Below are positions 3,231-63,691 of a stretch of DNA of 64,000 nt, in pieces (position 1 is the stretch's first letter; each line of letters opens with the position of its first letter). A program made the position numbers and the translations under genes. Source of the stretch: Ulota crispa (Eukaryota > Streptophyta > Bryopsida > Orthotrichales > Orthotrichaceae); NCBI GenBank assembly GCA_963920765.1, contig OY987248.1, positions 439,001 through 503,000 of the forward strand, in the 5' to 3' direction. The notes beneath the pieces were generated by a model. It made no database searches, had not been told where the DNA came from, and was given only the letters and a program-made list of their open reading frames with translations.

Positions 3231-3273
3231 TCTAAAACATGTGGAGCACAATCAAACACTCATCGGCATATAC

Positions 3274-4391: not shown

Positions 4392-4446
4392 CTGCAAGTA
4401 CGGTATTCTATCTCTGCAAGCAAAAATACTGTGCCCCTAGACGACC

Positions 4447-22765: not shown

Positions 22766-23149
22766 GTGGCCACTTTACGATGGCATTTATTTTGTAATTT
22801 AATCATTTTCATATGTTTATCTAGATGTTTTGGAAGGCTCATATATTTTGCCTTTGTTTGAATAAAAATACTAAGGGTTTAGAAGTCAATAGGAAAGGTG
22901 TGAAAGGAGAAAGGGTTTGGCATCTATGGTGGGGTTAGGATAGGGAAGGCATGGGCTGATGTGCCCCACCTCCCTACCTTAGATAGGGTCGAAATTGTGG
23001 AGGAAAGATCCCTTAGTTGTTGGAAGTTAGTGTATGAGTGTTGGTGGGAAGAAGGGGAAAAATCCCGAAACTTTGATGTGAGATTTTTTTCTGTGTATAC
23101 GTGATTTTGAATTGAAATTTGAGGAGGTTGTTCTTTGTGTGATTACCTT

Positions 23150-28058: not shown

Positions 28059-28060
28059 AT

Positions 28061-32842: not shown

Positions 32843-34456
32843 TTGACAACAATACACGACAAAATGGACCACTCAAAGACCGCCTCACCAAGTTTGGCAA
32901 ACAAAATCAAGAGTATAGATGGACTAATGAAACTGCCAATCTCAGTCACAAGCATGATTGCGCACAGTCATGGAGATGTCAACTTTGCTCACTATTCACT
33001 AGACCTTTACAAGGCCAACTCAAACCACACTGTTGGTTCTATTGCAAAGCTATTTTGAAATTTGGAACAGCCCAAGCAGTTTGTTTGCGGTTTACTTTTT
33101 CAAAATTCCGGAAGGACGCCATTGTTTAGAGCTATTCTTTAAGGGAAGGAGGAATGCATTCATTCCGTAGGAGCATCAGGTGCAACTCCTATGCCCCCTC
33201 TTCTTCCACCAATTCTGCACGTGCAGTTGAATAATTGCTGGAAAGACAATAAAAGCAGATTTGTCTTTGCCTTTTGGTCACTACTTGTTGCAAACAATGT
33301 ATTTGAAGAGGTTGTGATGTCTTTCCTCTTAGTGGATCATACTCATGAAGACATTGATGCTTCTTTTTGGAGATGGAGCATGAAACTAAGGGAGAAGGAC
33401 CATCCCACGATTCTTGTGCTGATGGAGTCTTACATGACTTTAGACTGTCACACTCACAAAGTTATTCTCCATTTGATCAAAGAAGTTCCCGACTTTAAGA
33501 AATTTGTTGCACCTTTTCTTCCGAGAAATGGGAATGAATTAATTGGTCACACTGGTGGCCAACCTTTCAAGTTCTTAATGCGGGAAGGGGAACCAGTAAT
33601 GCAGTTCAAAATTTGGTGCTCTAAGGATAGATGGAAGCCAGCAGAGGGCATCAAACTTTGGGACGTGGGCGAGGATGGCAAGCAGGTTTGGCCGCGTGGC
33701 GATCCAATGGCGGCTGAACCAATTCCAATGAAAAACAAAGAAGAAATTGTGAAAGGCTTGTCAGGGTACATTTCGTACTAGGAGTTGCTCGCCGCGGCTG
33801 ACACGACTGGGAAGTATCTGTCCAAGCAAGGGTCTATAACGAACTACTGGAGAGGTGTAAAGCATGCCTTAGAATTGTTTGCCCCCAATCCGGTGCCTCA
33901 GTTGGTAGAGGGATTTTGGCCGTCATCAAGAGTTCGGGGAGCTGGATTGAGGTGTTCAACTTAAATGGCTCAATTAGAGAGGAATTCGACAACAACAATC
34001 ACTTCATAGGTCCTCGTTGAAGTCGTCCAAGGCCATTATTTCGAGTTGCCCGGGATTGTTCTGAAGGGTTCATACTCCTGCTACGCCCCGGAGACGGCAA
34101 TGCAACACCAAAGCCTGTGTGGGTCGCATTAGCATTGGCGAATCCAAATTTATCTTTGGTGAGCAAAAACTACCAGAAAATATTAATTCAGTACTTCAAT
34201 CCTATTCCAAAGGATGTTGATGTGCAAAATTCTTATCGTGGATGGGATGGTGGGGATAAAAATTTCGCTAAAGTGGAAGGCTGACTCACCGCTGGCGCCA
34301 TGTTGGGTACACACAGACTCCATACTGACGGCGTGGAAGCGCAGAGTCGGCGCGGTGAACATTTCTATCCCACATGTGCACGTACTTGAGGCAAAGGACA
34401 ATCTTAGTAGATGCAATGATGGCAATGGCAATGATGGTGATGATGAACGAGAGTGA
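32843..34456 (+). pseudogene. Transposase-like HDKMD/QLDN/GHTHEDID gene, part B copy (decayed)
   Basis: Reads in one main frame: IHDKMDHSKTASPSLANKIK, PISVTSMIAHSHGDVNFAHY, PPILHVQLNNCWKDNKSRF, FLLVDHTHEDIDASFWRW, VEGFWPSS and ILLRPGDGNATPKPVWVALA, then IQYFNPIPKD. This is a plant and animal transposon-associated family (I believe catalogued as DUF7869) whose three acidic motifs suggest an RNase H-like DDE fold; that mechanism is inferred. Lesions: in-frame TGA at 33056-33058, TAA at 33140-33142, TAG at 33779-33781, and a frameshift near 34270. The usual QLDN reads QLNN, losing a putative catalytic Asp, and GHTH reads DHTH. It ends in an acidic Asn/Asp tail. Part C encodes the same protein in the opposite direction. 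Confidence 0.75.
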
Positions 34457-44918: not shown

Positions 44919-47900
44919 CAAATTTGATTAGTTACAAAAAATTATGGATAAAGGTTTGTGGTCCTAAAAGCTGTAGCGTTTTAGTGAATATCTTTTGTGT
45001 TGATTGGATGTTTTTAACTTTTAATTCAAGTATCATGCTCAAATTTGACATACTGATATGATTTTATTATATGCAAACTATGGCCATTTTTAATCCTTTA
45101 GCTCGTAATTGAGAGCGTGGAAAGAATCAATGTGTTTGTGAGCATTTAAACTACGAGAACAGATATGTTGTTGGAGTCAACAGTTTGGACACACAAACTT
45201 GGGAAAGGAGACATTTTTGACTCCCAAAAATGTTCAAGAGTGGCATTTGGAAATTTTAGACAACTACAACGAAACCAGTGGACAGAGACGACCAGAAGTT
45301 CGAGGAAGGCGTCAAATTTATGGCCTGACTGCTGTATTCAATAACAAGAGAGACTGTGCATGAAGTTTCGTAGCGATGGGCCTGAAAGGTACTGGGAAAC
45401 TTATGAGGAAAAGTAATTTATCCGCTGTTAATAGTGCTGTCATATGCTGAGCATATGTATACAGTCATACTGTAGTTTCTATTGTCACAAGGCACCAAGA
45501 TTATACAAAGATGTTGCTGCCATTATATTAATATATATTGGTACCACGATGCAGGCAATGAACAATTGTGCAAAAGTCGGGTTGTATCTGGATGGAATAC
45601 CGTTGAAAGCTGCGATGCTGGCGGAATGGACCCTCGGTAGCATGATTCTAGACATGGCCGGTCTATTCAGACATACTCTCTTCAATTGACTCCTGCATGC
45701 AGCAATTACGTCAGCTAGCCATGGGCGTGTGCACTCCGGCGCTTGTCACTGGCAGCCGCTCTCTCTCAGGCTGGATTGTTGCTGAAATTAGCATGAATAC
45801 CCAAGTGACAGCTAGCATGTCCCTGCATTGCGAAATCATGTTCAGTCTGGCTGGACTTGGTTGGTCATCTCTGATAGTCAAGTTCCGAGTTACTCAGACA
45901 TGACTGTTCTCTGGCATCCGAGCTAGTATCTGACTACACTTGTGTCAAATCGGCTCCGTGAGATGCAACAAAGACTTCCGCGGCAGCCTGACAGTTCTAA
46001 GTCAAGGCGACTAGATATGGCCTGAATTGCTGAACCTACTCCTGCAGCAGGATTTTGAAATGGGGCAGAAAATGTGATCATGGCTAACCCTTGAAGTCTC
46101 GAAATCTTGCAGTAAGCTTAGTGACTTTCGGTCCTGGCTTTCGGTTCCGAGGAAGGTGTAACAAGTCAATATGAAAATGCAGAAACGGAGAGAGGGACAC
46201 ATGGCTCCCGGCCGCAACCTCATATTTCAAAGTGGTAAGTTTACTCCGAAATATCATGCTTGCCGGCCAAAAAGCCTGATATGGTTATTTAATTGACGAT
46301 GTACCTGCTTAAGTACACCTGGATGCCCAATTCTATGAAATAGAGTGAATTCAAGCCCTTTGGCGTACCTTCCTGGAACGGCATGTTGCAAAGTGCGGCA
46401 TGCTAGCAGTCAAGTTCAGAATACTGTAGTTGGGCGGTCCTTTGAGGTGCGCATATTCCGGCCGCCCAACATTACCTACCAAGGCATCGTCTTGTCCGAG
46501 ATGGAGGCATGCATGGAAGCATTGGAGCATTGGCATGACTGAAATGACCCCAACGAAAAGCTAGCGTTTTCCTGTTACTATTTTGTTTCAGTTGGGTAAA
46601 TGTGTAAAGTAGAAGGCAACGATTTGGTGAAGTGACTACACTGTTAGATGTTATGACCAGTACAGTACTGGTAAGTTGGACGTGCAAACACTATCTGAAA
46701 AAATTCCCGAAACTCTAGAAAATTCATCTTGTGTATTTACGCAGGGAAGGTAGAATTGGAACTACTCTTTAAGAATTTGAACTTTCCACATCATTTAGAA
46801 CCAAGGATGAACTCCCAAGCTGGTCGGTTGTAATATTTCGAGTGTGATGTCATGTAACTATCAAGCTAAATATGCAACATATGGAGATACTACACGATTC
46901 GAATATTTAAGGGTGAATGATCGTTGACTGTTGGAATACCAACGAGGCTAATGTGCCCAGATAATTTTATTTTACTGCAAATCGGATACGTCTAAAAAAA
47001 TTTGGTGCAGTTTTTGGGGAACATTAAGTTGCTGATGCGTGGTAACTGTGATTGGTTTCAGCCTGCGCCGGGAACACCATATTCGTTAAATTGGGAAAAA
47101 CAGAGGTACCAGTTTGTACTCGGGTGATGGCACGATCAGCGTACCCAAAACGGACCGCTTAACTCCGATTTGGCCATACACATGATACTTCTGCTATTTA
47201 TTATGTTTTATTTGAGAGTGATATGCTCTTAATTTTTTGGCAAGAAGTTGCTTATACTTGTAGATTAGTAAAAAAAAATACACTTTTTTGAATGATGAAT
47301 GTTATCATGTCCAAATGAGCAATTTTGTAAGAGGTTCCTGAACTGTCTTATTTTATCAAAATGAAGTAAAAGACTCATCCGGACTACAAATTTGGTTAGT
47401 AGGAATTAGGTTAATGCATTTATAGTTGTACAAGCTTCTACAATAGAACTCTTGTAAGCTAATATCCTGTAAGCTAATATGCTTTGTAAAGTAATGTATA
47501 ACAAAAATCTCAATGTTAGACCATACGTCAATCATAAACCAAAACAATTTATTCAACAGTAGTAATACTCCTTGGTGGTATCCTGACACTAACCTCAAGA
47601 TAATTAACTAATAACTTACTAAACTAATCTAGTTCTTGGGGTCCCAACCATATTAGTTTAGAGTTCTATTGTATAGTCCATGAAATTAAAGTGTATTAGT
47701 CCATAAATTATTAAAATTAATTGTGGTGAATTCTTTTAGGGACATTTTCATGTGAGATTTCCCACATCCAATAAAGAACATCAAAAATTTGTAAATTTTC
47801 TTTTTAAGTGGCAAAAGCATGCACATATACTTGTTTCTAGGTGCACGTATGGTCAAAATTATTAAAATGTTAATAGCTCATTATAGGGAGCCATTACAAA

Positions 47901-48650
47901 TTACAAGTCAAAAAAGGTTGGATTAGGGCATTTGGGTTCTAATCACTTTTACGGTGTGAAAAAAATCAAGAAAGTCCTTTTGATGGAAGGAACACTTTCT
48001 AAATGAATGTCTTAACGTAAGGAAAACTTAAGAAAAAAATCTCAATACTTGCAAGTTCAACTTCTTCTCTAAACAAAAAACTTTGGACTCACAGGATGCA
48101 AGTCTTGTCCGGAGGTTTGGCAGGCCCTTTTAGGAGTACCCTGATTGTGCCATCACCCACTCCACCTTAAACCCAAAAAGTTACTGGTATCAGATTCAAT
48201 TTTTTCCCCTTGCAAATTCCTCATCTTAGGTGAAGGCACGTGTACCAAAAAAACGCTGCAAGCTCAGTTTAGAACCTTAGGTGACCACCTAAAATTTTTA
48301 GAAGTCCCAAAATGCACTATTTTTTCCAATTTAATGAATATGGTATTCAGGATAGTTATAGTAGGCGATGGAGAGGGTAGAGGGATACCAAAATGGGCAT
48401 CAGTTTGATCCCTTGCTTAGGATACAGCTCAAATCAATATCAGAGTGTCTTCAAACATAAAGTAGTTCATAATGATTACCAAACAATAACAAAAAAAAAT
48501 TCCTTGGATGCTATATTTAACTACTTCTAAACTTTGGCATGTCTAGAATTTGTTAAGGCCACAAATCCCTCAATAGAAAGAATCACAAGAGTACTTCAAC
48601 ATGGAATGTCTTACAAATGCTTGTTGGTAGTGCAAGAATTCACATTACTG
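44919..48650. other. Intergenic region without a supported gene
   Basis: Short frames only; the longest, 81 codons at 45444-45689 on plus, has no recognisable motif. The GC content is intermediate from 45.1 to 47.2 kb and AT-rich elsewhere. Confidence 0.5.
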
Positions 48651-49675
48651 AATTGGGGATCCCCCAAAGTATATTGCAAAATACATGCAGAAAACATGAA
48701 TCCATTACACTATAATAGTATCAGTTGTATCTGGAGATCCCTTGATGTTATTCTAATGCTAGTCTGATCTTCTATGGTAACTAGCAATGTTATTTCAACA
48801 TATACAAGCGCAAGAAATAATAGGCAACCTAAAGAAATTCAGTGCAAAATCTAAAACTAGGTAATTGGCCATTATTGTGTGAAGAAGTTAATCGCGCTTA
48901 CAAAATCTGCATAAGATAATCCATGAAGCTTGTCACATAACATCACATTCTCTAATTTAATGGTTTTGAGATTTCATTCCCATAGAATGCAAAACATACT
49001 CAGCAAACAATTAGCCGAGAACCTCATCCGATTGTAATACAGTACTGAACTTGAAAGCCAGAAATCAAGCAGCAGCAGATGGGTCCAATCACTATATTTA
49101 TTTGCCTAGACATTTTGTGAAGTTCATACAGCAATATTAAGCAGAACTTTCTATATGAACTGCCTTGCCAGACTGTGTACAGTGAATGGTGGGCTAATAA
49201 AGCATGAGCGCTGCAAATAAATCTCATCTAAACTAATATCATCTAAAAACTAAAGTTCAGCACAATTCTCTTTGTGAGGGCCAAATGAAAAAAGACCAAA
49301 CTACATCCTTAGGATGCTATCTCATTTACAAGTCCATATAATCAACTAGATTAAAACATAACATAAGTAAATCTAGCTCTACGAGATCCAATCGCATAAT
49401 TGTATAGGAATATAATTGTGTTCGATAGCACAAAATCAAAGAGCCATCAAGGAATCCCTCAATAACAAGGGAATCCAAAGAGGAGAAACTTGGTAAGCAT
49501 AGAGGGATCCCTTGAAACCAATGAAATCGTGACAGCTGCAACAAGAGAATCATAAGGGATCCCTCGATGGAAGCGTAAAGATGCGAGCAAGAACTTGGGA
49601 GATATAGGGAAATCCTTGGATGGAATTGGAACTTGGCCAGTAGCATATTAGGGAGCATTGGGGGATCCCTCGATG
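48651..49675. repeat. Family-2 palindromes left of the part C gene, including a 53-bp array
   Basis: Sites at 48651-48669 (TTGGGGATCCCCCAA), 48729-48747, 49445, 49498, 49551, 49602 (degenerate) and 49656. The last five are spaced 53, 53, 51 and 54 bp. The copy at 49656-49675 reads CATTGGGGGATCCCTCGATG. The core GGGATCCC is nearly constant. The array sits just beyond the 3' end of the leftward part C gene. Confidence 0.8.
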
Positions 49676-49739
49676 ACAGTGTACCATGAGAGGAACTTAC
49701 TATATCACGGGTTTTCTGCGTTTGACCTATCCAAATTTG

Positions 49740-50378
49740 CTAATGCAGCCACCGGTAGTGTCCAAGAATTCTTCTTGTCTTTGAACTTTGGGCCTTAGAC
49801 CAATTAGAGTATACTACACAAGTAACTTTGACCCAAGTGGGTGTATTGATTTCAGGAACCCATCTTCTGGTCCAGCAGTTATGGTACTGCAATCGAAGAT
49901 CAGTCTTGGAATTATCCGGTTGCCAATACTGAAGAAGGAACTTTCTGTAATTCTCTTCCTCGACCACCCGGCAGACAGCGGACATTGCTCTTCCAAACCA
50001 AATGGCACACAAGTCAGGCTCTTCAGGTCTCAAAATAATCCATGAACCAAGGTGCACATCAACCCAGGGATTGTAGCTTTCCTAAGGCGCTTTGTTTGCA
50101 AGTTCATAGTAAGGCTCCAGCACTTCATGTTTTGGAATGACGTCCACCGGATGAACTGTCAACCTTGGACGTAAGACATCGTCACCCGCTAGCCTCTAAT
50201 TACAGATAGGCCAGAATCCTTCTGCTAATTTTGTAGGACTGTCATGCAGTGGCCAGCAGCTCCTGAAGCTCAAGTAGCACGCAATTCCAATATTGTATGA
50301 ACGGTTCAAATGCCACCCTAAATCCGTCACATTATGCCATACCAATCTTCCAGTATTGAAGGTACTTTTGTATTCCAA
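49740..50378 (-). pseudogene. C-terminal portion of the part C HDKMD-family gene
   Basis: Minus-strand stretches CWPLHDSPTKLAEGFWP, then GSWIILRPEEPDLCAIWFGR and RKFLLQYWQPDNSK, match part B (PQLVEGFWPSS; GFILLRPGDGNATPKPVWVA; KILIQYFNPIPK). The homologous order confirms that this is the tail of the same protein. Frames change between blocks, so it is split by introns or by frameshifts. Confidence 0.6.
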
Positions 50379-51573
50379 CTAACATGAAACCTTTGTTTAG
50401 TATAGCTTTGCAAGCCATTTCTTGAGCCTTCTCTTGATTGCCTGTTGAGATTGGAATTTTGTAGCCCCACATTGGTTTGAACGGAACAGACTTTGAGATC
50501 CTTGAAGGAAAAAGAGGGCGGCCGTTATTGTCTCGCTTCCAAAGGCAAACAACGGCTTTATTGGTTGGCAACCATTGAATATCAACAATGGACTTCTTGT
50601 ATCTCATGACGGGCACCTCTTCATTGTCTACATAGAACCGAAGCAGGTGCATTTCCCCTAACCCGATTAATTTAGAAGAGCCGATGCTGATGAAATCTTT
50701 CACAAAGGACTTGAAGTCACCAACTTCCTAAATAATCTCTAGAATGAATGATAACTTCTAGGAGTGCATGAAAGCTTTCATCATATTAGCAAGTATGAAC
50801 ATGTTTGTGCTCTTCAAGGCCTTTGAGAGATGACTGAAGATTGCATCGATGTCCTTGTGCGTGTGTCCGACCAAAAAAAATCCAACTTGAATCTCCTTAA
50901 AGACACTTTGAGCAATAAGAAGTGACAAAATCACCATTAAGTATTGGTTTTTGTTATCCTTTGCAGAGTTGTCAAGCTGCAAATATAAACTTCTAGGAAG
51001 TGGAACGGATCCGGCGCGTGCTTCCGGATCAACAATTTTCAAACTGTCAATACACCTAGACTTTCCCTTAAGAAGCGCTTCAAACATTGGATTTGCTTGC
51101 AAATATGGAAAGAGATCTCCAACCTTAAGTATTGGAGGACCCTCAAATCAATATTATAATCTCGCTAACAATGAGACTGTGAGGTTCAAGTCTCCCAGCC
51201 AACAAGATGGAGCATAATGAGCATATGCACCATCACAATGACCATGCACCAGAATTCCAGTTACACTAATGAGAAGCTGGCTGAGACCTTGCATTTCCTT
51301 TGGTATCACATGCATTCTCGGAATAGCAATTTTTGCAATATCCATCTTATCATGAATGATACAAAGAACTTCCCTCGGATTTTGTTTAAACTCTTCACGC
51401 CATGAAAAATACAGACGACAATAGGACATCTGATGATTCAGATGTTCGGGGTGTTGTTTCTTGAACTCCAAGTACTTAGGACTCCCCTTGGGCGATTTGA
51501 AAAGGAACTGCTCAAGGTTGGTCACATGTACTACACTTTGCAAACAAGCTTCCAACAGGCTTAATAAATACAT
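50332..51573 (-). pseudogene. Transposase-like HDKMD/QLDN/GHTHxDID domain, part C copy (decayed)
   Basis: One minus-strand frame reads HLNHQMSYCRLYFSWREEFK, LCIIHDKMDIAKIAIPRM, SVTGILVHGHCDGAYAHYAP, SLYLQLDNSAKDNKNQYL, FFLVGHTHKDIDAIFSHL and, further on, FISIGSSKLIGLGEMHLLRF. The three acidic motifs are intact here, unlike in part B. In-frame stops fall at about 51154-51156, 50758-50760 and just after (near 50725), all in the same frame as the domain, so the copy is non-functional unless introns remove them. Same family as 32843-34456. Confidence 0.75.
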
Positions 51574-51772
51574 TGTTGAAAAATTCCTTCTTGATTCTAT
51601 TTATTGTTGATTGGCTCATTGGAGGAAGTCTGTAGTTGACATTCAACTGCACATTCCAGTCATCAAAAAATCAGCCCCAACATATAAAGAATTGAATCAA
51701 ACAAGAAGGCAAGAGAACAAGATTGCAAAACGGCACCGGCAACGCAGAAAACCAATATTGACTAGACGAAGT

Positions 51773-51860
51773 CATAGAGGGATCCCTCGATAGCAGAACG
51801 ACACTAATAACGCAAAAAACAAATATTGACTAGACAAAGTCATAGAGGGATCCCCAATAG
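51773..51860. repeat. Two family-2 palindromes between part C exons
   Basis: Sites at 51773-51793 (CATAGAGGGATCCCTCGATA) and 51841-51860, spaced 68 bp, with the shared phrase AATATTGACTAGAC.AAGT upstream of each. They lie between the GIPKSTYHSY-type exon and the HDKMD exon. Confidence 0.7.
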
Positions 51861-51899
51861 CTCTAACCACAGCGGGAAAGTATAACCAAACTTACATCA

Positions 51900-52447
51900 T
51901 TGGCATCAACGCGGACTTGTTTCCTGTTGTTTCCTATCGGAAGGTACTTGAAAGTATCTACTCTATCATTGCCAATGCTACGTATCTGATAGGGCATTTG
52001 ACCGGAGTTATTATTAATGATAGCAGTCATAGTCCCCATCACCTGGACTGTTTCAACCTGGGGACGCTTAATTCTTTTGTTCTCGTTAGTGTCAATTATG
52101 ACGTCTTCCTTGTAATTGCCTATGTAACTATGATAAGTTGACTTAGGAATCTTGTAAATCAAATACCATGCGATCGTACAGACTTTAGAGCCCCCAAGTG
52201 TTATAAACTTGCAGTTCCAAATCCCTTCAATGTTATGAATCTGACCACCTGCTGCGAGACTGTATTCTCGGCAATCCTTGAATGACCTTAAGTAGTACAT
52301 TTGTCTAATCTTCAAAGTCAGCTCGTGAAAAAATAGTTGATAGCATTGACTGTCACAGCATTTCAGAGAGCTGACTTTCCAAATTTCCTCAATTTTTGTT
52401 CTACGGACAAATTGGGACTCCTTCTTGCAAAGACTAGGCTTCCGCAA
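51900..52447 (-). pseudogene. N-terminal Cys-containing and IPKSTYHSY exon of the part C gene
   Basis: Minus-strand frame with KVSSLKCCDSQCYQLFFHEL, IRQMYYLRSFKDCREYSLAA, KVCTIAWYLIYKIPKSTYHS, then RPQVETVQVMGTMTAIINNN and FKYLPIGNNRKQVRVDANDV. The Cys cluster followed by R..YYL.SF, and the conserved IPKST.H block, are typical of the region before the HDKMD domain in this transposon-associated family. The exon overlaps the preceding frame (52363-53244), so a splice or frameshift links them near 52380-52440. Confidence 0.6.
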
Positions 52448-53244
52448 AATGTAGCGGTAGCAAGCTTTTTAATCACTCTACCAAGATATGCATGGAGATT
52501 GTCAACAAGCAGTATCACCGCAAAATGATCCAGAGTCTCCTTCAGAGAGCTTCCGTTAGGAAACCAGCATAAAGAAAGAGGCCAATGCGCATGAGTCATA
52601 ATGGCGTCCTTGTTGCCGTGGAAAACATCAAGAACCGTTACCCCCATGTTGTCCTCATCTAAAATACCCCCTTGAAAATTATTGTCCGGCCTGTCACAAT
52701 TTTTGCAACGCAAGGAAAGTAGCTGTCTAAGATCATCTTTTAAGTGGACTTCCATTCCAACCCATTTATCCTGATGAACAAAGAAAGATGATCCCATTGA
52801 GGGATCCCCCAATGACTTCACTACACAAGATATCCTCCATAGAATGGTTTGGTCAGTAACATCCCGCAACATCCTCAACTCCTTTTGAGCAACGTCAATT
52901 AAAACAATACCTACAGCTAGGGTAATAGACAGGGGCCGCACCAAGGCAAAAACCCATGGCTCAAGTGGAATGACAACGCCTAGCCACTGTCTTTGTGGAC
53001 AGGCTTCTACAATAACTCCATTACCAACTTCTCCAACACCCGCTATGAAAAGGCTCACAGGGTCTCCATCGCAGATGGACTCCAATGCCCTACTAGAGTT
53101 TTGAGACTCCTCTTGAGACAAATGAAAATATCTTGCAGGTACTAAGGCATTGACAATTGATTTGTTCCGAGGGCTATCCATACTGGCCGTGAGATTTAGG
53201 ATCTCACTCGATATGAATAAATCAATCCTAATTAGTTCCTTCAA
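52363..53244 (-). CDS. 5' coding region of the part C gene
   Basis: About 290 codons open on minus, starting at MKELIRIDLFISSEILNLTA, with hydrophobic blocks (ERWLGVV..-like PLEPWVFALVRPL) and a later Cys pair, LSLRCKNCDRPD. A 54-bp palindrome-bearing segment, 52771-52824, interrupts it in frame. Near its end, VDNLHAYLGRVIKKLATATF resembles the first exon of part B (LLDEVMTLVRNCEGSAVLYY), suggesting the same gene. I recognise no domain. It could also be a separate upstream gene. Confidence 0.45.
   Translation of the reverse strand: MKELIRIDLFISSEILNLTASMDSPRNKSIVNALVPARYFHLSQEESQNSSRALESICDGDPVSLFIAGVGEVGNGVIVEACPQRQWLGVVIPLEPWVFALVRPLSITLAVGIVLIDVAQKELRMLRDVTDQTILWRISCVVKSLGDPSMGSSFFVHQDKWVGMEVHLKDDLRQLLSLRCKNCDRPDNNFQGGILDEDNMGVTVLDVFHGNKDAIMTHAHWPLSLCWFPNGSSLKETLDHFAVILLVDNLHAYLGRVIKKLATATFCGSLVFARRSPNLSVEQKLRKFGKSAL
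52771..52824 (-). other. 54-bp GT-AG segment carrying a family-2 palindrome inside coding sequence
   Basis: On minus it begins GTAGTGAAG and ends TTTGTTCATCAG, and contains the palindrome at 52795-52814. Removing it leaves RISC joined to DKWVGMEV; leaving it in keeps the frame open for 18 codons. Its size equals one 53-bp array unit. Confidence 0.4.
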
Positions 53245-53503
53245 ATCCAGTCAAAATACCGTAGTGAGAGATGTTCCAAACCTTGTCTCTGATACAAATC
53301 GATGAGTAATGTGCAATTGAACCACCTCTAAATGGGAGATGGAATATCTTGTCTGCTGGTTATAAAATCTATCTTGAACATGCAATGAAACAAGACAACA
53401 TCCCTCAAGCACTTCAAAGACAATTGCATTATACTAGCCACATACATTTCAATATTTGCTTGGAATCTAGAGTAGAAGTCATTTGTCACACTCATAATGC
53501 ACT

Positions 53504-53960
53504 AATCGGGGATCCTCCAATGAACTAATATGAGACACCCAGAATTACAATAATTCAATCAAGGAATCCCCCAATACAGTGCTTATAATGAAAAGGAAGA
53601 ACCAACAATTATTGGGCTAAGTCAATATAGAAAAGGTCATTAATGGCGGCATCTAGTACATCTATCAAGGGATCCCTCTATGACATGATTACCAATGTCA
53701 CGTTGCAAACATGACCTATCGGGGGATCCTCCAATAGAGTGAGAGCTGTATTTCTCTGAAGGCTAGCACCCACTCTCACTCAGGGAGACTTCCACCAAAG
53801 TATTATTGATTACCTGAATACAAACTGAATGAATTGAGGGATCCCCCGATAGAGATTATGCCCATATTGGTTGATACCAACCACTACAATCATATCCAAC
53901 TATGCAGTTGGAGTCAGAGGGCAAAGAAAACTAGCCTATATTGGGGGATCCCTCGATGAC
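53504..53960. repeat. Family-2 palindrome array upstream of part C gene
   Basis: Sites start at 53504, 53556, 53663, 53716, 53832 and 53939. Spacings are 52, 107, 53, 116 and 107 bp, close to one or two steps of about 53 bp. Examples: TATCAAGGGATCCCTCTATG at 53663 and TATTGGGGGATCCCTCGATG at 53939. Confidence 0.8.
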
Positions 53961-55478
53961 TTGATTGTACGGACTGTGACGATCGATTCAATTGAAATAT
54001 ATGATTAATTACTGCTCAAATGACAACCAAAACATAGACTATCCGACTCAATGTACCAAATAATCCAAATAGTTCCATGGATGAAGTCCATCATCCATTC
54101 CATAGTGAAATAAATCAATCCATGAAATTCATTCTAACATTTGAACATATACAACTCCTGCTATTGTAGTTCAATTTAACCCCTGGATCATGTGTGCGAG
54201 TCTTATAATCCACAAAATGTACTAAGTCTAAAACAATCCCTAAAGTTCTGCACCACACCAAATGAAGCAATTCACAACCATACAACAAGAGATTAGACTG
54301 AATCAGAAATGCAAACATGATCACCTGTAAATGCTTGTAATTAGCTCCGTGCGGGCTTGACATTGCACTCCGCGTTGCTTTTCACTGATACCCTGTGCTT
54401 TAGGCAATACAAAACCTGCTCTTCTCCAACGCAATGTGGCAGTATCAATACTAATTGGCTGCAGTATACACAAACTAAATTTGCAGATGCGCCATGGCAA
54501 AGCAGCACAACTCTGACACTGCAAATTGCACAATGTGTAGCGGAAATTAACTGTGAATGAGCAATTTTAGACACACAAAATATAATCAAGGAGCGGCCGC
54601 ATTTTTGGCTGCAGAACTATAGACAAACAAGTAAGTTTTGTGATTGGTGCCAAGGGTCCCAAATCCTGCCAAGCTTTGATTGAGGATGTTCTTGATTTTT
54701 GAATTTGCTCCTGCTAGTGGAATTAAAAAGTATAATTTGAAGCCATCCATGACCACACTTGCAAATGATGAACTAGAAGCCGAGCCACCATCTGGGTACA
54801 GTGAGGATGACGGCGTTGGCTAGTATTATATTCCACCATGAACGGACAACAGCATGCAATAGAAATAGACTCACTTTCTTGTGTCTAGTACTCTACTACC
54901 ACTCATTTTGAATTAGTACACCTTCTAACTACCCTAAACCAACTTCTTAGTTCCAAGACAACTACATTGTTGTTTGGTGATGCTAATCTTTGAGAATTCA
55001 TGGTGTTGCAAGAAAGTTGTATGTGCAAATCAAATTATATTACACTAAATTACAACTCAATAATGCATATTATAAATGAATAGAAGTAAGATATCAACAA
55101 TGTTGGTTAATTAAAATTAGTAAGCATTTTGAGAATACAAATAATAAATGAAAATTAATACTGTCACACCATAATTATCTCGTTAATTTGATTTGCACAA
55201 CTACAGATTATTTAATTGTTTTAACTTGATTAATTTTAACTAAAGATATGTCAATGGTAATTATACTCTACAATTACTTGAAATTGAAGTCTATGCGGAT
55301 TTTTTTTTCTGATATGTTCAATATTAATCTAACAGATCCCCTTGCAACATTGTGAATTTTTCATATTTTAATTAGGGTACAATTTACAAATGAACTAGTC
55401 ACAAACTCTTGAATATGCATTCAATCATGGAAGGTAACGTTGTGTGAATTAATGATGTTTGTCTTTTGTATAAGAACA
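53961..55478. other. Right flank of part C, no supported gene
   Basis: Short frames only. A GC-richer stretch ends near a NotI-like GCGGCCGC at 54593-54600, after which the sequence turns AT-rich; this may mark the element edge, but no terminal repeat was recognised. Confidence 0.4.
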
Positions 55479-55985
55479 CCCTCAACCCTAAACCCTAAAC
55501 CCCCTTTACCTAACCGTTTTCACTCTAGGTGAATTAGGGGGTTTATTCAAAACCAATTATGGCTGAAATTCTGAAAAGCTTGGAAAAATCTGAAATTTGA
55601 TCCACACAATCATAGTACCATAAGGGGCAATGGGTAATTTTTGTGGATTTAATTGTCGTAGCCCAAGGGGGGACCCCCTGTACCCTAAACCTTTTCAATC
55701 TAGGTGAATTTGGGGATTTATTCAAAACCAATGGTTGAAAAGCTTGAAATGCACTAAAATTTGAACCACACAATCACAGTACCATGAGGGGCAGTGGGAA
55801 ATTTTTGTGGAATTAATTAACATTGCCTCGGTGGAGATCCTCTTTACCCTAATCCTTTTCATTTGAGGTGAATTAGAGGGTTTATTCAAAACCACTAGCT
55901 CAAATGCTTGGAATGCCCTAAAAATTGAAGCACACAATCACAATACCACAAGGGGCAATGGGTAATTTTTGTGGAATTAATTGAC
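55479..55985. repeat. Telomere-like run plus three tandem ~165-175 bp repeats
   Basis: Starts with ACCCTAAACCCTAAACC (55484-55502), the Arabidopsis-type telomere unit. Three tandem copies follow, starting near 55504, 55678 and 55842. Each holds TAGGTGAATTAGGGGGTTTA or a variant, TTCAAAACCA, CACACAATCA.A.TACCA and GGGGCAATGGGTAATTTTTG. Confidence 0.8.
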
Positions 55986-56132
55986 CCATAGCTAGTATAG
56001 GCATTGCAATCCGGCCACAGTTGGTTTGTGTGCATGGTTTTATAATACCTATAATTGATTACAAAAGGTCCTACACCTTACTCACCCTTTGCCGACATGG
56101 TGAATGAAGTTTCATTGAACCCAAGTATTTTT

Positions 56133-56770
56133 GCCCTTCCATCTCAATAGATATTCCATTGCCCCTTCCTTTCAAATGGTTACCTCTAAACCCAAAACAA
56201 GGCATTGAAACCCTAACAATTCCACGTAAATTTCCACACTTCACGTACCCTATGCTTAAGTGATTGAGCAATTTTCAGGTGATTCCGTTCATGTTTTCCC
56301 TTCCATCCCAATGGAACCTCCATTTCCACTTGTTTTCAAGTGGTTGCACCAAAACCCTAATCCATCCACTCTTATCCCACACAATTCTACCAAAATTCCC
56401 AAACTGCCCTCACCTAATGCTCATAGGGTGGTGCAAATTTTAGATCAATTTGTCCAATTTTGCCCTACCACCCTCATTCACCTTTTCCATCAAATGGTGG
56501 CCTCCAAACCCTAATCGAGGCATGCGGACCCAAAAAATTATACAAAAATTCCCGCACCTTCTTTATTGTATGCTAAGGTGGTGAAGCAATTTTTAGGTCA
56601 TTCTGTCCTTTTTTGCCCTTCCATCCCAAAGGAACCCCTATTTCCCCAATTTTTCAAATTGGTTGCCTCAAAACCTGAACCCATTTGCTTTGACCTAATC
56701 GATTCTATTTAAATTCCCACACTGATCGGAAATTGTTGGAATTGTGGAAGTTTAGCCCAAATCGTTGCAA
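56133..56770. repeat. Second tandem array, four ~160-bp copies
   Basis: Copies start near 56133, 56298, 56462 and 56615 with GCCCTTCCATCCCAA. or a variant, followed by CCATTTCCCC, TTTTCAAATGGTT, CC.AAACCCTAA, AAATTCCCACAC and GTGGTG.AGCAATTTT. The unit differs from the adjacent 55.5-kb array. Confidence 0.8.
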
Positions 56771-56912
56771 GCACCACCCTTTCTCACTTTATTAATTCCA
56801 CAAGATGAAATTTATTACACATTTCCAAAGTGGTTTCTTTATTACATATTTATTTGAATGTCATGGCTATCCATATTCTAATCTTCATATAGAATGTATG
56901 TTGAGGTTGGAA

Positions 56913-56932
56913 CTAACCCTAAACCCTAAACC
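56913..56932. repeat. Short telomere-like run
   Basis: AACCCTAAACCCTAAACC, about 2.5 units of the plant telomere repeat, beyond the second tandem array. Confidence 0.7.
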
Positions 56933-58292
56933 AAATCTCCTATAGATAAAACTAAAACTATGAGTACAACTGTCTTCCGAAACATTTTTTTTGTGATTGT
57001 CACGCCTTTCCAATCTCAATTTCATTTGAAAATGATTAGGTGAGTGACACATCATGAGAAGTTTCAATATACAATAACATGCTTATCTGCATGCAACAAA
57101 TGAATCAGTTGACTCAATTGCATTCATTTGCACTCCAAGTACACAATGCATAAATTATTATCTTCAAGTTAGAGTAGTAACACCTCAACAATAATGAAAC
57201 CAGATTAAATTTATTTCAAATTGTAGTTAAATTCCAAGAGATGCATGTAGATATAAACAAATAAAAAAGAGTATGTCAAAATATATTATTGTTCAAGAAG
57301 TGTGCAAGAGTACAGTTGGAATGAAGAAGAATTAATTTTGCAATTTAAAGAAGAGTGAAGAGTCAGAGAACAAATCTTCAAGAAGATTGGGTAATTCAGA
57401 CCAACAAACTTGCACTATGAGTTTACACTTTATCTTGTAAGTATGCATAATTATCAAAAGGTGTGTAGTACACTTTGTTGTACACTTAACAATTATATTT
57501 AAGGTGAAGACACATTATTGAAAGAACTTAATCATGAACATAGAATATCATGAATGAATATCTCAAAATATATCAATCTTGCCCTATTTAGTACTATGAA
57601 TATATTTCAGTTGCAATTGAGTATTCAATAATGTTTTATCCTCAAATGAGATCTTGTTCTATTCAATTTCTTTTATAAAGAAAGCATTTCCAAATTTATA
57701 TTCCAATGTAATTCAAACTTGAGTCCATATATTGAATATTAATAAGGATTGCTTATGGGGCACCCTAATTTGCTAATGCGACAACATTGCAAGCATGAAA
57801 TTAGATAATTTAATGCTATTTTTAAATTATTCAAGTAGAAAATCACGCATTTAATCATGGCAATACCATCACCTTGAAAAGGAATACTTGAAGTACAAGT
57901 TTTTATTAAAATACTAATGCACCCAAACCGTTGTTATGTTGTTCATATGTTTTTGCTTTAACTAGTAACTCAAGAGTCCTTTATTTTAAGTTTCAAATGT
58001 TAGCACACCGATTTCTTTTTAGTATAAACTTAGTATGAAAATGGTGAAATGAAAGTGATTGAACCAAATTTTATAATCAGCATTAGAATGTCAAAATTAA
58101 AGCTTAGAGGTAGTGTCTCTTTAGAAGTTTATAGTGTCCCATTAGCAATAATTCCCTATCAATGACGATGAACTTCACCAACATTTTATATTATTTTGCA
58201 CTAGAACACATAAAATGTCCGTAAATGTGAACATTATAATAGTGCAGTATTGTAACTACAATTGATTACAACGTTCAAAGTAACTAAATTTT

Positions 58293-58702
58293 GGGAATTG
58301 ATACATGTACCACCCCTTCTTGACTATTATACATCACTCTACTATATATGGTCAATATTTACAATATTTCAATAGGTGTGGACCACAAGAAAAACATCAC
58401 TTACAAAATGACATAGAAATTGCATTTTTTAGTAAATGTTTTTAGCTTTATATCTTGCTCATATTATCAATTAAAAAATCTAAATTATGTCTAGTTTTAT
58501 ATAGATTTTTTAAATTAATTCTATGAGTAAGATTAAAAGTTGTAAATCAAAAATAAAATTATATCTTTGATGTCAAGTTGAATTTTCATATTAGTGATGT
58601 TTGTCTTGTAGCCCACACCTATTCAAATATTGTCAATATGGACCAAGTATAGTAGGGTGTGGTAGAATAGTTAAGAAGGGGTGGTAAATGTATTAATTCT
58701 CC
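58293..58702. mobile_element. MITE with ~110-bp terminal inverted repeats (copy 3)
   Basis: The left arm GGGAATTGATACATGTACC... pairs with the right arm over at least 110 bp: both read ACCACCCCTTCTT.ACTATT, TGGTC.ATATT.ACAATATTT and AATAGGTGTGG.C.ACAAGA. TAAATT flanks both ends at or within two bases and may be the target duplication. It is similar in size and layout to the elements at 7675 and 13245, though the internal sequence differs. Confidence 0.75.
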
Positions 58703-58856
58703 TAAATTAAATACCATGGAAATATTGCAACTATGACAATGTAGTGAATTGAGTAGGATGGGTGCAACAGTAGCGTATGATGTGATGATTATTTTGTAAT
58801 CATGTTTCATGAACACAAAATCCCAAATTGGATGTCTTCTTCCAATAGCGTTCACT

Positions 58857-60198
58857 TTTCAATAAGCGGCTGTCATGATGGCGTTCCCAAGACATCGTTC
58901 ACTGTGTTCCCAAACGATAACTGGACATACTAGCCAGCCGCCATTTGATCTTTGTCTTCCCATCCCCCCCTTTTGCTAGTCTCCAGCTTCCTCTCCTACG
59001 CCTCGCTAAACTGCAACCATTGCTTGATTTTGTTTCACGCTTTAGAAATTGTTGTGCGTTGGAATTCTGGACGGGGTTGAAGCTTGTCGGCGACTGTTGT
59101 CAAGGGTTTTGATTGTTGATGCGCGGCAACTTTAGGGCGAGTAGGTGCATGTTGTTGAAGAAAGCAGATTGTTGTCCGTGGTGGTTGCAGTGATCTGTGA
59201 ATCAGTTTAGCAATTGTAACAAGTGCAAAAATGATATGCTTGCTACGACGATGGCACCAACTTCTAGTCAAAGGTACACTAATCCACACGCAACTAATTG
59301 TAGTTGCATTGGAAAATTAAATTTCAGCATTTTCAGTGTCAATGTATTGAGTCTTGAACTCTGATTGCCAAATGTGGGTTCGTTGGTTAGATGCTTACAG
59401 CAACTATACTTATGATTGTGTTTGAAGGCAATGTTGAAGTGATCAAGCAATAAATAAATGTATCATTTGGGGAGTGCTTCACTGATCAATAGTTCTGCCA
59501 AACTTGAGCAATGCATCCATTCCCATAGTTGTATCTGTGGCAAGAGGCCGATCGCAATTGCATGTGAGAGAGTAGTGTCACGTGGATCCCATCTTAGGTG
59601 ATCTTTTGAATTGTTCATACATTTCACGTGTTGGCGTGTCCATACAGTTGAATAGTTACATTGATTTGGATAATAGTTTTGATGATTCAATAGTATTATG
59701 GTAATAGGCAATTTGTACAGCCAATGTGAATGAATTTGTAGTACAAAATATATTAAACCGAGATAAGAAATAATTCTAAGTAGAAGTTCGGTTTAAAAGG
59801 GTTTAGGACTACAATGATCTGTACAAATGACATGTTCCTGGAGAAAGTAACGAATGTGAGGTTTACGGTATGTACAAGAGAAGAACCTCAAAATTTTCAC
59901 TATAATACAAATAACAAGCAATTTTCGATGTGCAAAACTTGGTTGCGCCCAATTACTTGCTACAACAGTTCCACATTTTGACGAGTGTTGCTGTAAACTT
60001 TTGGACAATGGCTCGAAGATCAGCTTCACGAGACGCAACCATCCCCACTTGGGATTTGCAATAAGTCAATCTTCAAACAGTATTTGAATGTATCTATGTG
60101 TTTATTTGTATTATAGTAAGCATTGGAATCAAGAACAATTGCACAGCAAACGGCACAACACAAGGGCATGGAGCTAGGGTACTGAACCCTAATCTCGT
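58857..60198. other. Leader region of part D, no supported exon
   Basis: The sequence switches abruptly from AT-rich to GC-balanced at about 58857, next to the MITE, suggesting an element boundary. Only frames under 110 codons exist. I could not align it convincingly with the A or B leaders. Confidence 0.35.
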
Positions 60199-60921
60199 CA
60201 TGGGAGATCCTCCGATGACAAAATTCATTTGGTTTAAATGAACTTTGTTGTCCACAACAAATTTTAATGTGTATGATTCCCATTGGGGGATCCCCCAATG
60301 GAATCAATGAGATAGTTTCTTTTGTGCTCACCCCATTGGAGGATCCCTAGATACAAGATTTAAATTGCATGTAGAGTATGAACTTTTAAGTGTGGAAGCG
60401 GAAATCACACTACCTATCCGGGGATCTCCCAATTGAGTTTCCTCTGTTTGATCCTTGTAATGCCATTAGGGATTGTCAAGAACAATTGATCGAGTGTGGT
60501 GACGGAGCTGAGTGTCCATCTGAGGACCTCCTATATCTTGTCATTCATGCTAGCATGCGTAGTGTCAATGCCATTTACTACACCCGCAATGGATGCATGG
60601 TATATACAGCCTATTGAGGGATCCCTTTATAGAAGCTCACATCGCTTGAAATGGATTGCGGGTTGCCCCAGATAATGGTTTTGAAATAGTATTAGACAAC
60701 CTCACAAATGCAAACAACTCGGTATGGAGTTAGCCGTTGTTGTGTCAATCATCGAGGAATTCCTCAATGGAATAACATTGCAACGGTAGAGGTCCTGTGA
60801 CTGTATCCGGGGATCCTTGGATGATGATGACCAGCATTGAGCGTCACATTCACAGATGACAATATTAACTAGGACTGCTTCTAGAATAATGGATGCAATC
60901 TATAGGAAGATCCATCGATGG
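60199..60921. repeat. Family-2 palindromes upstream of part D gene
   Basis: Sites start at 60199, 60281, 60334, 60414, 60611, 60750, 60804 and 60900. The copy at 60281-60300 is a perfect palindrome, CATTGGGGGATCCCCCAATG. Spacings 60281-60334 (53) and 60750-60804 (54) repeat the 53-bp step. The copy at 60750 has the centre GAATTC instead of GATC, with the symmetry kept. Confidence 0.85.
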
Positions 60922-61060
60922 CTATCCTACCTTCGCTTGAGGGATGTAGTTTTGAAGCACCACAGCCATCATCGGAATGGAATTAGAGTAGTTGACCTAC
61001 AGAGATTGTAGGAGCATCTTCTAAATTGTTCTATAAAATGTATGCAGACTTGAGGTAGAA

Positions 61061-61808
61061 ATGAAAGTGGATCCCGCGCTGAAGCCACTAAGGATCTCAC
61101 ACTTCATTGACCACTGGGTGCCCTCTTTCCTCTATGTTGGAAAGCACATGCCAAATGCTATATTCCGTTGCCAAAAGAAAGTCAAGGAATGGGGATTGAA
61201 GTGGCAGCTGATGCCAAACAAGGAAACCATCATTTCCCTGCACTTGAGGTGCAACATGAGGGACCACCTCACGACTAGGCTGAATGTGCTGGAAATGCGG
61301 TGGCTCGACAGAAAATCAGCCTTTCTAGTTGTCTGTGAGATGGTGCCTGAGACCAAAGACATACAAATCTACGGGCTCATTCTTGACTTCCCGCTCTCCA
61401 AAGAACTGTGCCAATCAATGCTTGTGATTGGTCTATTGAATAGTGACAAAGATTGCTTGGAATTTTCAAAGGAGGAACTGCGGACTAAATGGGCATTGAT
61501 TTCTGCAGCCCGAGTAGCCAACAATCCAACGTCTACCGCAATTGTAACACTGGCTAAGACCCTTTCCCCGCAAAAGAAAGAAAACAAAAAAAAAGGCTCT
61601 AACCGAAGGTGTGGGCAACCCAGTGGACGAAGCCAGGCCATTGAGGAGCGCAAAGAAACAAAAATCAAATCTTGAGCTTTACGAGTACGTAAACTATGAT
61701 GAAGGAGAAATCCAAAAACTCACTAAGGACCAACTAACAAGAATGCACAACTTGTACATGGAGAATTCTGATGTACTGTATCCATGGGGGGAAGAGATTT
61801 GTAAATGA
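61061..61808 (+). pseudogene. N-terminal region of the part D ParB-like gene, with frameshift
   Basis: Opens MKVDPALKPLRISHFIDHWV and runs through LTTRLNVLEMRWLDRKSAFL, DIQIYGLILDFPLSKELCQS and LRTKWALISAARVANN to a Lys-rich AKTLSPQKKENKKKG. At a run of nine A (about 61587-61595) the sensible reading passes to another frame: KKALTEGVGNPVDEARPL, SNLELYEYVNYDEGEIQKL and MHNLYMENSDVLYPWGEE, ending in TGA at about 61806. Order and composition parallel the part A N-terminus (basic linker after a helical region). The shift may be decay, an assembly error or, less likely, slippage. Confidence 0.5.
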
Positions 61809-61923
61809 TATTGGGATGCCCTTACGAGTTCATTTTGATAAGTTGCTCAAAGCAGTAGCAGGAGATTAGGTATACAGAGGCATTCAGCAGGATCGGCTAG
61901 ATGGGATAATAAACAAGATTTGA

Positions 61924-62378
61924 GTTCACGGGAATTATGACCTTGATGACCAAAATATCTATGTCCTACCTCTCAAACAAGGTCCAACCGGTACGAGCAA
62001 GGCAATGAAGTTTTTCAAGACGGCGCCCAAAAAGGCAGACATCATCGGCAAGACATATTACTACATCATCGATGGGCAGCACAGAGTCGAAATTCACAAG
62101 ATCCTTGTAAAAAGGAATTTGATGCATCCTCAAGACATCCCAATGGCATCAACCTTCAACATTATTTTGGTATGGGCTCACAAAGACAATTGGATGTCCT
62201 TGTTTCTGTTGTCCAAGGCCCTGAACCAAAATATCGCAGGAACTTAGAAGGAGCAATGCTTCACAAAGCAGTTGCAAACTGCAAGGAAAAAGTGGAGAGC
62301 CAAGGGAAGTCCATAGCTATCTATAGAAGGACAAAAACACTTGGCAAAGTACAAAGTAAAAACCCAATCTCTCTGTAA
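61924..62378 (+). pseudogene. ParB/DGQHR-like domain of the part D gene, interrupted by TAG
   Basis: Frame reads NYDLDDQNIYVLPLKQGPTG, KTYYYIIDGQHRVEIHKILV and NWMSLFLLSKALNQNIAGT, then TAG at 62245-62247. The same frame continues as KEQCFTKQLQTARKKWRAKG SP, matching the part A order (DYMNQSNII, then VVHIRRIWEDMGSP). DGQHR-x-E is a good match to the conserved turn of ParB/DndB-like proteins. The stop indicates a dead copy. Confidence 0.55.
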
Positions 62379-62395
62379 TTGAAAGACAATCTCTC

Positions 62396-62611
62396 CATTG
62401 GAGAATCCCCCAATAATGGTAGCGTCTAGTTGTATTCTCCAAATCAAAGCTCAATTTTTCTATAAGGAGATTCTTTGATACAAGTCGCGTCGAGGAGCAT
62501 TCTGAAAATCAGAGGTCATTCTGTTCATAGGGGTATCCTTTAATAAGGATTGGGACAGTTTGCATTCTGAGTATCAGAATTTGTTTTGTTCATAAGGAGA
62601 TCCCCCAATAC
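62396..62611. repeat. Four family-2 palindromes at exact 65-bp spacing
   Basis: Sites start at 62396, 62461, 62526 and 62591, each 65 bp apart. Surrounding words recur (GCATTCTGA.AATCAGA, AAGTTGCATTC.GAG), so it is a 65-bp tandem repeat with one palindrome per unit. Palindrome arms vary: CATAAGGAGATCCCCCAATA at 62591, AAGGAGATTCTTTGATA at 62461. It lies in the apparent intron between the ParB-like exon and 62675. Confidence 0.85.
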
Positions 62612-62674
62612 AGGTTGGGTCAAGTTGCATTCCGAGAGTGTGTAAAGAACTAAATTGGTTGATCTTTATTACAG

Positions 62675-63691
62675 AGTTTTCTTCCGTCGATGATCACCAT
62701 TTTTGCAAGTAAGAATAGTGTCGACAAGAAGGAATCCAATCCAAACATACCGCTGATGTTCATGGAAAATGACGCCGACATTGACCGCTGGTTAGAGATT
62801 GAGGAGCAATTCATTGAAGGATACCTTCCCGACAACGCTGGGACAATCATGGTATCCGGTGGCGTCGACCAAAATCTGCTGACCGAATATAATTTCAAGC
62901 CACTCTATGGACTTTGCACTGAGGACATCAACTACTTGGCATCAGAGGTTGAAGCAAAGAAGTTGACTTTGAAAGGGAATATGTTAAAGAAACTAGGTGC
63001 ACGGAATGCCATCCTTTTACTTAAGGATGCTGCTTCTTGTGTTAGGTATGAGAGGGTCATGAAAAACAAGTTAATGAACCACTATGCCAACCATCCTTTT
63101 CCTGCCAAGAAGATAGAATACGTTAGGTACCTAACAATTGAGTGGGACGCTTTTATGAATATTAAACACTTTACGGAGAAGGACATCTCCCTATGGTCTG
63201 CATGGGCCCTCGACAACCCTGCAGGAAAGAAATGGTTTGATGGCCGGTTGAAGCCATTAGGGAAGACTAACAATCCGGAGGACTGCCCGGCATGGATTAA
63301 GGATATGTGGGTTGCCATGACTGAGCTTCATTGTGAAAGTCGGGTTGCGTTGGACATGGAGTTAGATTTTGAGAATTTGTACTACAGCCTCATAATGGAC
63401 TACAATGCATGGAATATGAAGAAACTCACAGCGAACGCAGACATTGCTGCCTGGCAAAAAGATTCAAAGTGGTATATGTACTTTTGCTTCATGTTCGAGA
63501 AGTCGAAGAAAGCAGGGCAACCACCGCGTGTGATGAAATTGAAGGACAGTCACCTGCGGAAATTTTTTGACGCACTAGAGATTACCCAAGCCGGTAGCAA
63601 TCCCCCTAAGATAGTTGCTCGGTCACCAAGAGTGTTTATGATAAATGAGAAAGGATTGGTGGCCATATGTAACCACCTTCAAAAGCGGTGA
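62675..63691 (+). CDS. Downstream exon of the part D ParB-like gene
   Basis: A clean acceptor GATCTTTATTACAG precedes an open frame of about 339 codons (SFLPSMITIFASKNSVDKKE...). It holds PDNAGTIMVSGGVDQNLLTE, FKPLYGLCTEDINYLASEVE, IEWDAFMNIKHFTEKDISLW and a C-terminal KIVARSPRVFMINEKGLVAI, ending in TGA. By position it corresponds to the methylase-like exon of part A, but I see only weak similarity and no FGG motif; the latter may lie beyond the window edge. No known domain recognised. Confidence 0.45.
   Translation, partial: SFLPSMITIFASKNSVDKKESNPNIPLMFMENDADIDRWLEIEEQFIEGYLPDNAGTIMVSGGVDQNLLTEYNFKPLYGLCTEDINYLASEVEAKKLTLKGNMLKKLGARNAILLLKDAASCVRYERVMKNKLMNHYANHPFPAKKIEYVRYLTIEWDAFMNIKHFTEKDISLWSAWALDNPAGKKWFDGRLKPLGKTNNPEDCPAWIKDMWVAMTELHCESRVALDMELDFENLYYSLIMDYNAWNMKKLTANADIAAWQKDSKWYMYFCFMFEKSKKAGQPPRVMKLKDSHLRKFFDALEITQAGSNPPKIVARSPRVFMINEKGLVAICNHLQKR

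Follow-up and report, generated by a model that had tools for sequence, protein, structure and literature searches.

Bacterial ParB-parS systems pair the protein ParB with dispersed palindromic sites. In transposons, element-encoded proteins whose motifs differ between related elements are already known. According to passages of PMC5735166, VANC proteins, which contain the domains DUF1985 and DUF287, bind repeated motifs of 8-9 bp (YAGTATTAY, AGTTGTCC/AGTTGTAC) in the VANDAL transposons of Arabidopsis; the motifs lie in introns and in intergenic and terminal non-coding regions, often in tandem repeats, related elements have different motifs, and the transposase is VANA. TnpA binds the subterminal repeats of CACTA elements (En/Spm, Tgm) and is required for Spm transposition; the repeated motifs function in cis when the element transposes, vary among subfamilies and possibly co-evolve with TnpA (passages of PMC2613891). 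A giant Sola1 transposon of Ectocarpus carries a ParB-like and DNA methyltransferase gene opposite its transposase, and its authors suggest that proteins of this kind may act on the element that encodes them, by binding and modifying it; the passages of that description at hand name no cognate sites (PMC12477816). Here we analyse a stretch of 64,000 nucleotides from Ulota crispa (Bryopsida, Orthotrichaceae; assembly GCA_963920765.1, contig OY987248.1, positions 439,001 to 503,000; hereafter the window). It contains part of a DNA transposon with a DUF7869 gene, a ParB-like gene and many copies of a long palindrome, and across the genome the type of palindrome follows the clade of the ParB-like protein.

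The initial annotation of the window had reported about 27 core palindromes of a second family (family 2), confined to 48.65-53.96 kb (part C) and 60.2-62.6 kb (part D). A symmetrised matrix of 30 columns derived from those sites finds 28 at a score of at least 16, 16 of them at 48645-53963 and 12 at 60193-62615, and none elsewhere in the window, where the best score is 13.0; as the matrix was trained on the same sites, this remainder of the window is the fair comparison. First-order Markov shuffles (60) held a mean of 0.12 such sites, and 1 each at the most. The core GGGATCCC occurs 13 times in the window (0.57 expected), 12 of these within parts C and D. The 20-mer that had been given as the form of the site, CATTGGGGGATCCCCCAATG, is exact in only one of the 28 and the others are variants of it, as the same account had allowed. 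Sites of the other palindrome family (family 1) number 31 at the same threshold, all within 0.2-5.6 kb and 27.4-34.5 kb (parts A and B). The families were said not to mix, and at this threshold neither enters the parts of the other; the one blemish is a weak family-1 match (12.7) at 48270, which lies just outside the part C element and inside a different short element. Twenty-five of the 28 family-2 sites fall outside the spans of named genes. As in VANDAL elements, a short motif is repeated in non-coding parts (5' of genes, in intergenic stretches and in a gap within the DUF7869 gene) and differs between related elements. Unlike VANDAL, the transposase candidate here is DUF7869 and the sites are palindromes of about 20 bp; neither VANC domain was found in Pfam scans of 30 open stretches and 8 ParB-like rows.

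Parts C and D had been treated as two. They belong to a single transposon, since a copy elsewhere in the genome (C1a) aligns continuously from window position 63130 to 48509, and two separate elements are thereby ruled out. The genomic copies share one end adjoining the DUF7869 gene, at window 48508, and have the other beyond the ParB-like side, which for the window element probably lies at about 68 kb, outside the window, judging from the C4 copy. The ends are inverted repeats, ATGCCATATTTAACTACTTTTGGA. Two copies could be read at both ends, and each has terminal inverted repeats and a 4-bp target duplication: C4 (16,528 bp, with perfect terminal repeats) is flanked on both sides by ATAT and C3 (19,950 bp, including an inserted repeat) by CTTA. 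They resemble Sola elements in this combination; a 4-bp target duplication is described for Sola2 (PMC3627910). In a 30-kb region around C4 all 39 sites found fall inside the element, and around C3 25 of 26 do; the two copies had been fetched because they contain sites. An endogenous virus was considered and rejected: two viral-contig scans with the ParB-like alignments gave no relative, and the ends and target duplications are of the kind that a DNA transposon has. Two repeats were also seen. One, at window 55500-56000, consists of tandem units of about 160 bp within the family-2 element and is present in other copies too; the other, of 2.17 kb at window 22377-24545, is 92% identical to an insert within the C3 copy.

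Both palindrome families accompany the same two genes, as the initial annotation had it, DUF7869 and ParB-like being the only ones seen in both; other compared genes gave no match, and the third gene of the family-2 element has relatives in other family-2 copies and none detected in the family-1 element. The DUF7869 domain is matched in two pieces (50758-51147, E-value 2e-29; 51154-51600, E-value 0.0021, under the family's cut-off), and the gene product is probably a DDE-type transposase. The ParB-like proteins of the family-1 element (type 1, ParB1) and of the family-2 element (type 2, ParB2) are homologous by profile comparison (probability 94, E-value 1e-7), with a type-1 profile that also included two rows of a more distant type 3 (ParB3). 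Genome-wide there are at least 157 DUF7869 matches, from the list of which 141 places were taken, together with 35 places of type 2 (merged from 45 matches), 14 of type 1 and 48 of type 3 (merged together from 71). Within 50 kb, 28 of the 35 type-2, 12 of the 14 type-1 and 31 of the 48 type-3 places have a DUF7869 place, against averages of 4.8, 0.5 and 8.8 for random places, and the two genes are divergently oriented at 25, 12 and 27 places, respectively. This ParB-like gene opposite a probable transposase gene in a large DNA transposon has a parallel in the Ectocarpus Sola1 element; unlike there, the 30 stretches scanned here yielded no methyltransferase domain. The right half of one family-2 element holds a NIF/FCP1-like phosphatase domain (PF03031, E-value 9.4e-11, at L020:2987-3565). 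Contig C11, 6.3 Mb of a 275-Mb genome, has 31 of the 141 DUF7869 places, about 10 times the average density, and is perhaps a non-recombining or sex chromosome.

The palindromes at ParB-like genes were surveyed in 24 loci, each 3 kb long and chosen solely by protein match (12 ParB2, 8 ParB1 and 4 ParB3). Among the first 12, at a score of at least 12, sites were of family 2 alone in the four ParB2 loci and of family 1 alone in the four ParB1 loci, and the four ParB3 loci had sites of neither family, so that all eight of the first ParB1 and ParB2 loci hold their own family alone. A motif-blind search for even-length palindromes returned a top cluster of the expected kind that beat all 20 shuffles in 19 of 20 ParB1 and ParB2 loci, with a margin of just 3 vs 2 in L026, L029 and L047; in L040 it returned a low-complexity cluster, yet one exact family-2 palindrome is present there. 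The ParB3 loci contain odd-length palindromes (family 3), such as TTCAGCTCGAATCGAGCTGAA, in four of four cases; odd lengths were admitted post hoc, after the even-length search of these loci had come up empty, and the statement that ParB3 loci have no palindrome was then withdrawn. In ParB1 loci the arms vary from locus to locus (TTTTAGTTGATCAACTAAAA, ATGTACATGATCATGTACAT, TTTGAGGTGATCACCTCAAA) around a core, TGATCA, found in six of eight consensus sequences (not in L031 and L047). Half-site matrices of families 1 and 2 are no more alike than column-permuted matrices (0.37); the description of the two families as unrelated is therefore not rejected, and a common origin of their half-sites, which we considered, is unsupported by this comparison. 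Families 1 and 3 are more alike than permuted matrices (0.029), and the ParB3 loci fall inside ParB1 in a query-anchored tree, a placement that we do not rely on.

Within ParB2, loci whose proteins are more distant also have more distant motifs (Mantel r 0.50, p 0.0001, n=16, with the low-complexity L040 dropped; r 0.34, p 0.00025 with all 17 loci, five of which were not chosen blind to the motif). Position is kept as well. A site follows the ParB-like match within 102 bp in 16 of 17 type-2 loci and within 200 bp in eight of nine type-1 and four of four type-3 loci, counts that stand without a chance rate and with a loose pattern for type 1; in the window, the first site of the array downstream of the ParB-like gene begins 38 bp past the protein match. 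The position of the site is thus retained while its sequence changes between lineages, and lineages have their own versions of the palindrome, altered on both arms and at comparable places. Sites, elements, their linkage and their co-divergence are all visible at the level of sequence.

One such change could be followed across the whole genome. In the six loci of ParB2 clade B (L024, L025, L027, L036, L039 and L041; support for the split 0.994), position 6 of the half-site is T in all 64 half-sites, vs 1 of 158 in the other 11 loci, five of them picked with the motif in view, and the two arms match each other at this position in 32 of 32 sites. The exact clade-B variant occurs 22 times genome-wide (a complete list), and the pattern read backwards not once. 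Eighteen of these sites are no more than 20 kb from a clade-B locus, and each of the six loci has at least one; none of the 22 lies near the 11 other typed ParB2 loci, two lie near untyped ParB2 loci, both at a single one of 18, and the last two stand about 12 kb from a DUF7869 match that has no ParB2 match. Six are on the DUF7869 side, two each at C7:6304187-6305983, C8:4056061-4057896 and C11:1955593-1957402, so both halves of these elements carry the variant. The switch is a single one on the tree, and the chance figure for this distribution, 1 in 12376, ignores relatedness.

Clade-B sites also seem to bear marks of decay. At positions 4-5 their 64 half-sites read TG 30 times, CA 19, CG 14, AC 1 and TA 0, the remnant expected of methylated CpG, and the sites may therefore be methylated in many copies, as in silenced elements. 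Such decay is also what one would look for if a host protein (a silencer, insulator or transcription factor) bound the sites and the elements adapted to it. We consider this very improbable, because the many different palindromes in one genome would require as many host proteins and because the clade-B variant, the only one tested genome-wide, sits at one element lineage.

In nine pairwise comparisons of copies, in which pairs share sequences, the core positions of the sites are more alike than the flanks in eight. Positions 4-6 of the half-sites differ by 272 transitions vs 35 transversions (531 vs 356 in the flanks). The palindromes could on this account be passive, tandem-repeat units amplified and homogenised element by element through replication slippage or gene conversion, with no binder: some do stand in arrays of 53, 65 or 75 bp, changes at positions 4-6 are nearly all transitions, and clade B looks like decayed methylated CpG. 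This too we judge quite improbable, given that sites many kb apart in one element have the version of their lineage on both arms, that palindromy is retained in three clades of differing sequence, and that the core outlasts the flanks.

Palindromes also occur in short non-autonomous elements. A 264-bp element (L048:538-801) has 28-bp inverted ends starting AATGCCATATTT, one family-1 palindrome and, by eye, CAAT on both sides; 40 copies were scored among 4922 first candidates. It was met at a site of a family-1 relative, GATTNAGNTGRYCANCTNAATC, which with at most one mismatch occurs 552 times genome-wide (0 when read backwards). A second fetched place of this motif resembles the 264-bp element over 215 bp and two further listed sites lie inside scored copies of it, so that the four family-1 cases examined are all in short non-autonomous elements, which explain these few dispersed cases. 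Because the short elements have ends that start like those of the large ones and retain the palindrome, the palindrome appears to be needed in cis. Sites near the ends and in short non-autonomous elements recall TnpA and CACTA; unlike here, CACTA repeats are subterminal and the ends start CACTA, whereas our elements have sites throughout and ends that start ATGCCATA.

These same features would suit a different binder. If the palindromes were subterminal and internal sites of the DUF7869 transposase, serving transpososome assembly and self-regulation while the ParB-like protein does something else, one would expect outermost sites close to the ends, as in the C4 copy (233 bp and about 140 bp), a palindrome kept with the ends in the 264-bp element, and DUF7869 near the ParB-like genes of all three types. 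Most sites are, however, interior, for example 5' of genes, between genes and in the DUF7869 gap, and no sequence obviously common to terminal repeat and palindrome is seen by eye. We regard this explanation as possible but unlikely.

With moderate confidence, we propose instead that a group of large plant DNA transposons uses these palindromes as private operators, bound by an element-encoded homodimeric protein whose specificity would have shifted together with the sites. A palindrome of 20-21 bp that keeps both arms and is repeated through the element fits the needs of a homodimeric DNA-binding protein, and as no genes but DUF7869 and ParB-like were seen in both families, one of their products is likely to be the binder. 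The ParB-like protein is the most likely one, given the site beside its gene in nearly every examined copy and the precedent of Ectocarpus Sola1; otherwise it would be the DUF7869 protein. The homodimer would bind the palindromes of its own lineage and, its specificity having shifted alongside them, each lineage would act on its own copies, including short non-autonomous elements that retain the palindrome. Least certain is what binding would do: the protein might keep the promoters of the element unmethylated and active, like VANC in VANDAL, and might help to pair or present the ends for transposition, like TnpA in Spm. We thus picture a self-recognising regulator that would aid expression and mobilisation of its own lineage, by anti-silencing, mobilisation or both. 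A bolder version, which we find distinctly doubtful, sees a DUF7869 and ParB-like superfamily with a parS-like system, in which a dimer would load at the palindromes of its lineage and coat the element against host silencing, and in which the protein and dozens of palindromes per element would switch together, giving rise to at least three architectures and about ten half-site versions in one genome.

Several observations weigh against the operator proposal. The initial annotation had seen subfamily-specific recognition sequences that co-diverged with a DNA-binding protein of the element; co-divergence is borne out by the first eight loci, by ParB2 and by clade B, and in ParB1 the Mantel test is not significant (r 0.36, p 0.07, n=9), while binding by an element protein stays a conjecture. 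As motif and protein sit on one element, their association is in part expected from descent. Whole-site identity is below flank identity in five of the nine comparisons, because positions 4-6 of each arm change fast. The downstream genes of families 1 and 2 showed no homology, in a weak test with family-1 profiles of one sequence each. The label ParB-like stands for a short GQH motif and one weak match (phrog_1033, E-value 0.023), with no credible matches of any kind in Pfam or PDB (both types) or NCBIfam (type 2 only), and stops are present in most ParB-like matches; the elements are like ParB-parS in this motif and in their dispersed palindromes, and unlike it in that the ParB family models match nothing beyond that one weak hit. 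A spread of the motifs across the genome had been named in advance as telling against lineage-specific sites, and here the families differ. Family 2 is concentrated: with at most one mismatch to YATYRRGGGATCCCYYRATR it has 320 sites genome-wide (0 read backwards), and for 40 of the first 50, those listed, a DUF7869 or ParB2 match is at most 10 kb away (random places average 1.4), six of the other 10 being in copies C1b and C6, which hold other element parts. The family-1 relative GATTNAGNTGRYCANCTNAATC is on its face spread: of its 552 sites 50 were listed, and every one of these is more than 20 kb from any DUF7869 or ParB2 place. Family 3, with 560 exact sites (0 read backwards), is mostly so: 15 of 50 listed sites lie within 30 kb of DUF7869 or ParB3 matches and the rest are far from them. 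Family-3 sites away from the genes found also occur in pairs exactly 72 bp apart (C1:7614050/7614122, 8727091/8727163, 10032573/10032645 and 15968481/15968553), perhaps a second short non-autonomous element.

Table 1. Features of the family-2 element in the window, followed by family-1 and other comparators.
Position	Strand	Feature	Remark
48508..48531	+	left terminal inverted repeat, 24 bp	4 mismatches against the C4 repeat
48650..48747	.	2 family-2 palindromes, subterminal, ~140 and 220 bp from the element end	matrix scan
49445..49675	.	5 family-2 palindromes, 52-53 bp spacing, 3' of the DUF7869 gene	matrix scan
49740..53250	-	DUF7869 (PF25273) gene, several open pieces	the 'HDKMD' gene of the initial annotation
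51773..51860	.	2 family-2 palindromes in the gap between open pieces of the DUF7869 gene (probably an intron)	
52795..52814	.	1 family-2 palindrome within an open frame	site at the matching place in copies C11a and C4
53503..53958	.	6 family-2 palindromes 5' of the DUF7869 gene	
60198..60920	.	8 family-2 palindromes 5' of the ParB-like gene	includes the exact 20-mer (60281-60300)
61061..62358	+	ParB-like (GQH) gene, type 2	broken in the window copy
62396..62610	.	4 family-2 palindromes, 65-bp spacing, between the ParB-like and third genes	
62690..63691	+	third gene of the family-2 element, 333 amino acids	no known domain
3252..4397	-	type-1 ParB-like gene (comparator), 381 amino acids, open, family-1 element (parts A and B)	profile comparison shows homology to type 2
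33143..33781	+	DUF7869 piece of the family-1 element (comparator)	
35897..35920	-	candidate right end of the family-1 element	its terminal repeat resembles the short non-autonomous element's, with 5 mismatches
47074..48346	.	putative non-autonomous element of 1.27 kb, with ends of this kind	contains the weak family-1 site 48270

Some family-1 sites of the window, at 5298-5600 and 27407-28060, are regularly spaced at 75 and 125 bp, and GGACGTCC or a near copy adjoins several of these by eye. An AP2/ERF-like frame, indicative of a plant, was recognised by eye at 38.6-39.1 kb. Searches of the open-licence PMC literature returned no paper with DUF7869 and, among the titles listed, no description of DUF7869 and ParB-like elements, of their long palindromes or of two-arm switches.

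It is not obvious how a DNA-binding protein could change its specificity in step with tens of scattered sites. One genome seems to offer a graded series here, three palindrome families and several sub-versions tied to a typed protein tree, which makes both specificity switching and self-acting ParB-like proteins of transposons directly testable. If the proposal is true, self-recognition of the VANC type would extend to elements with another transposase.

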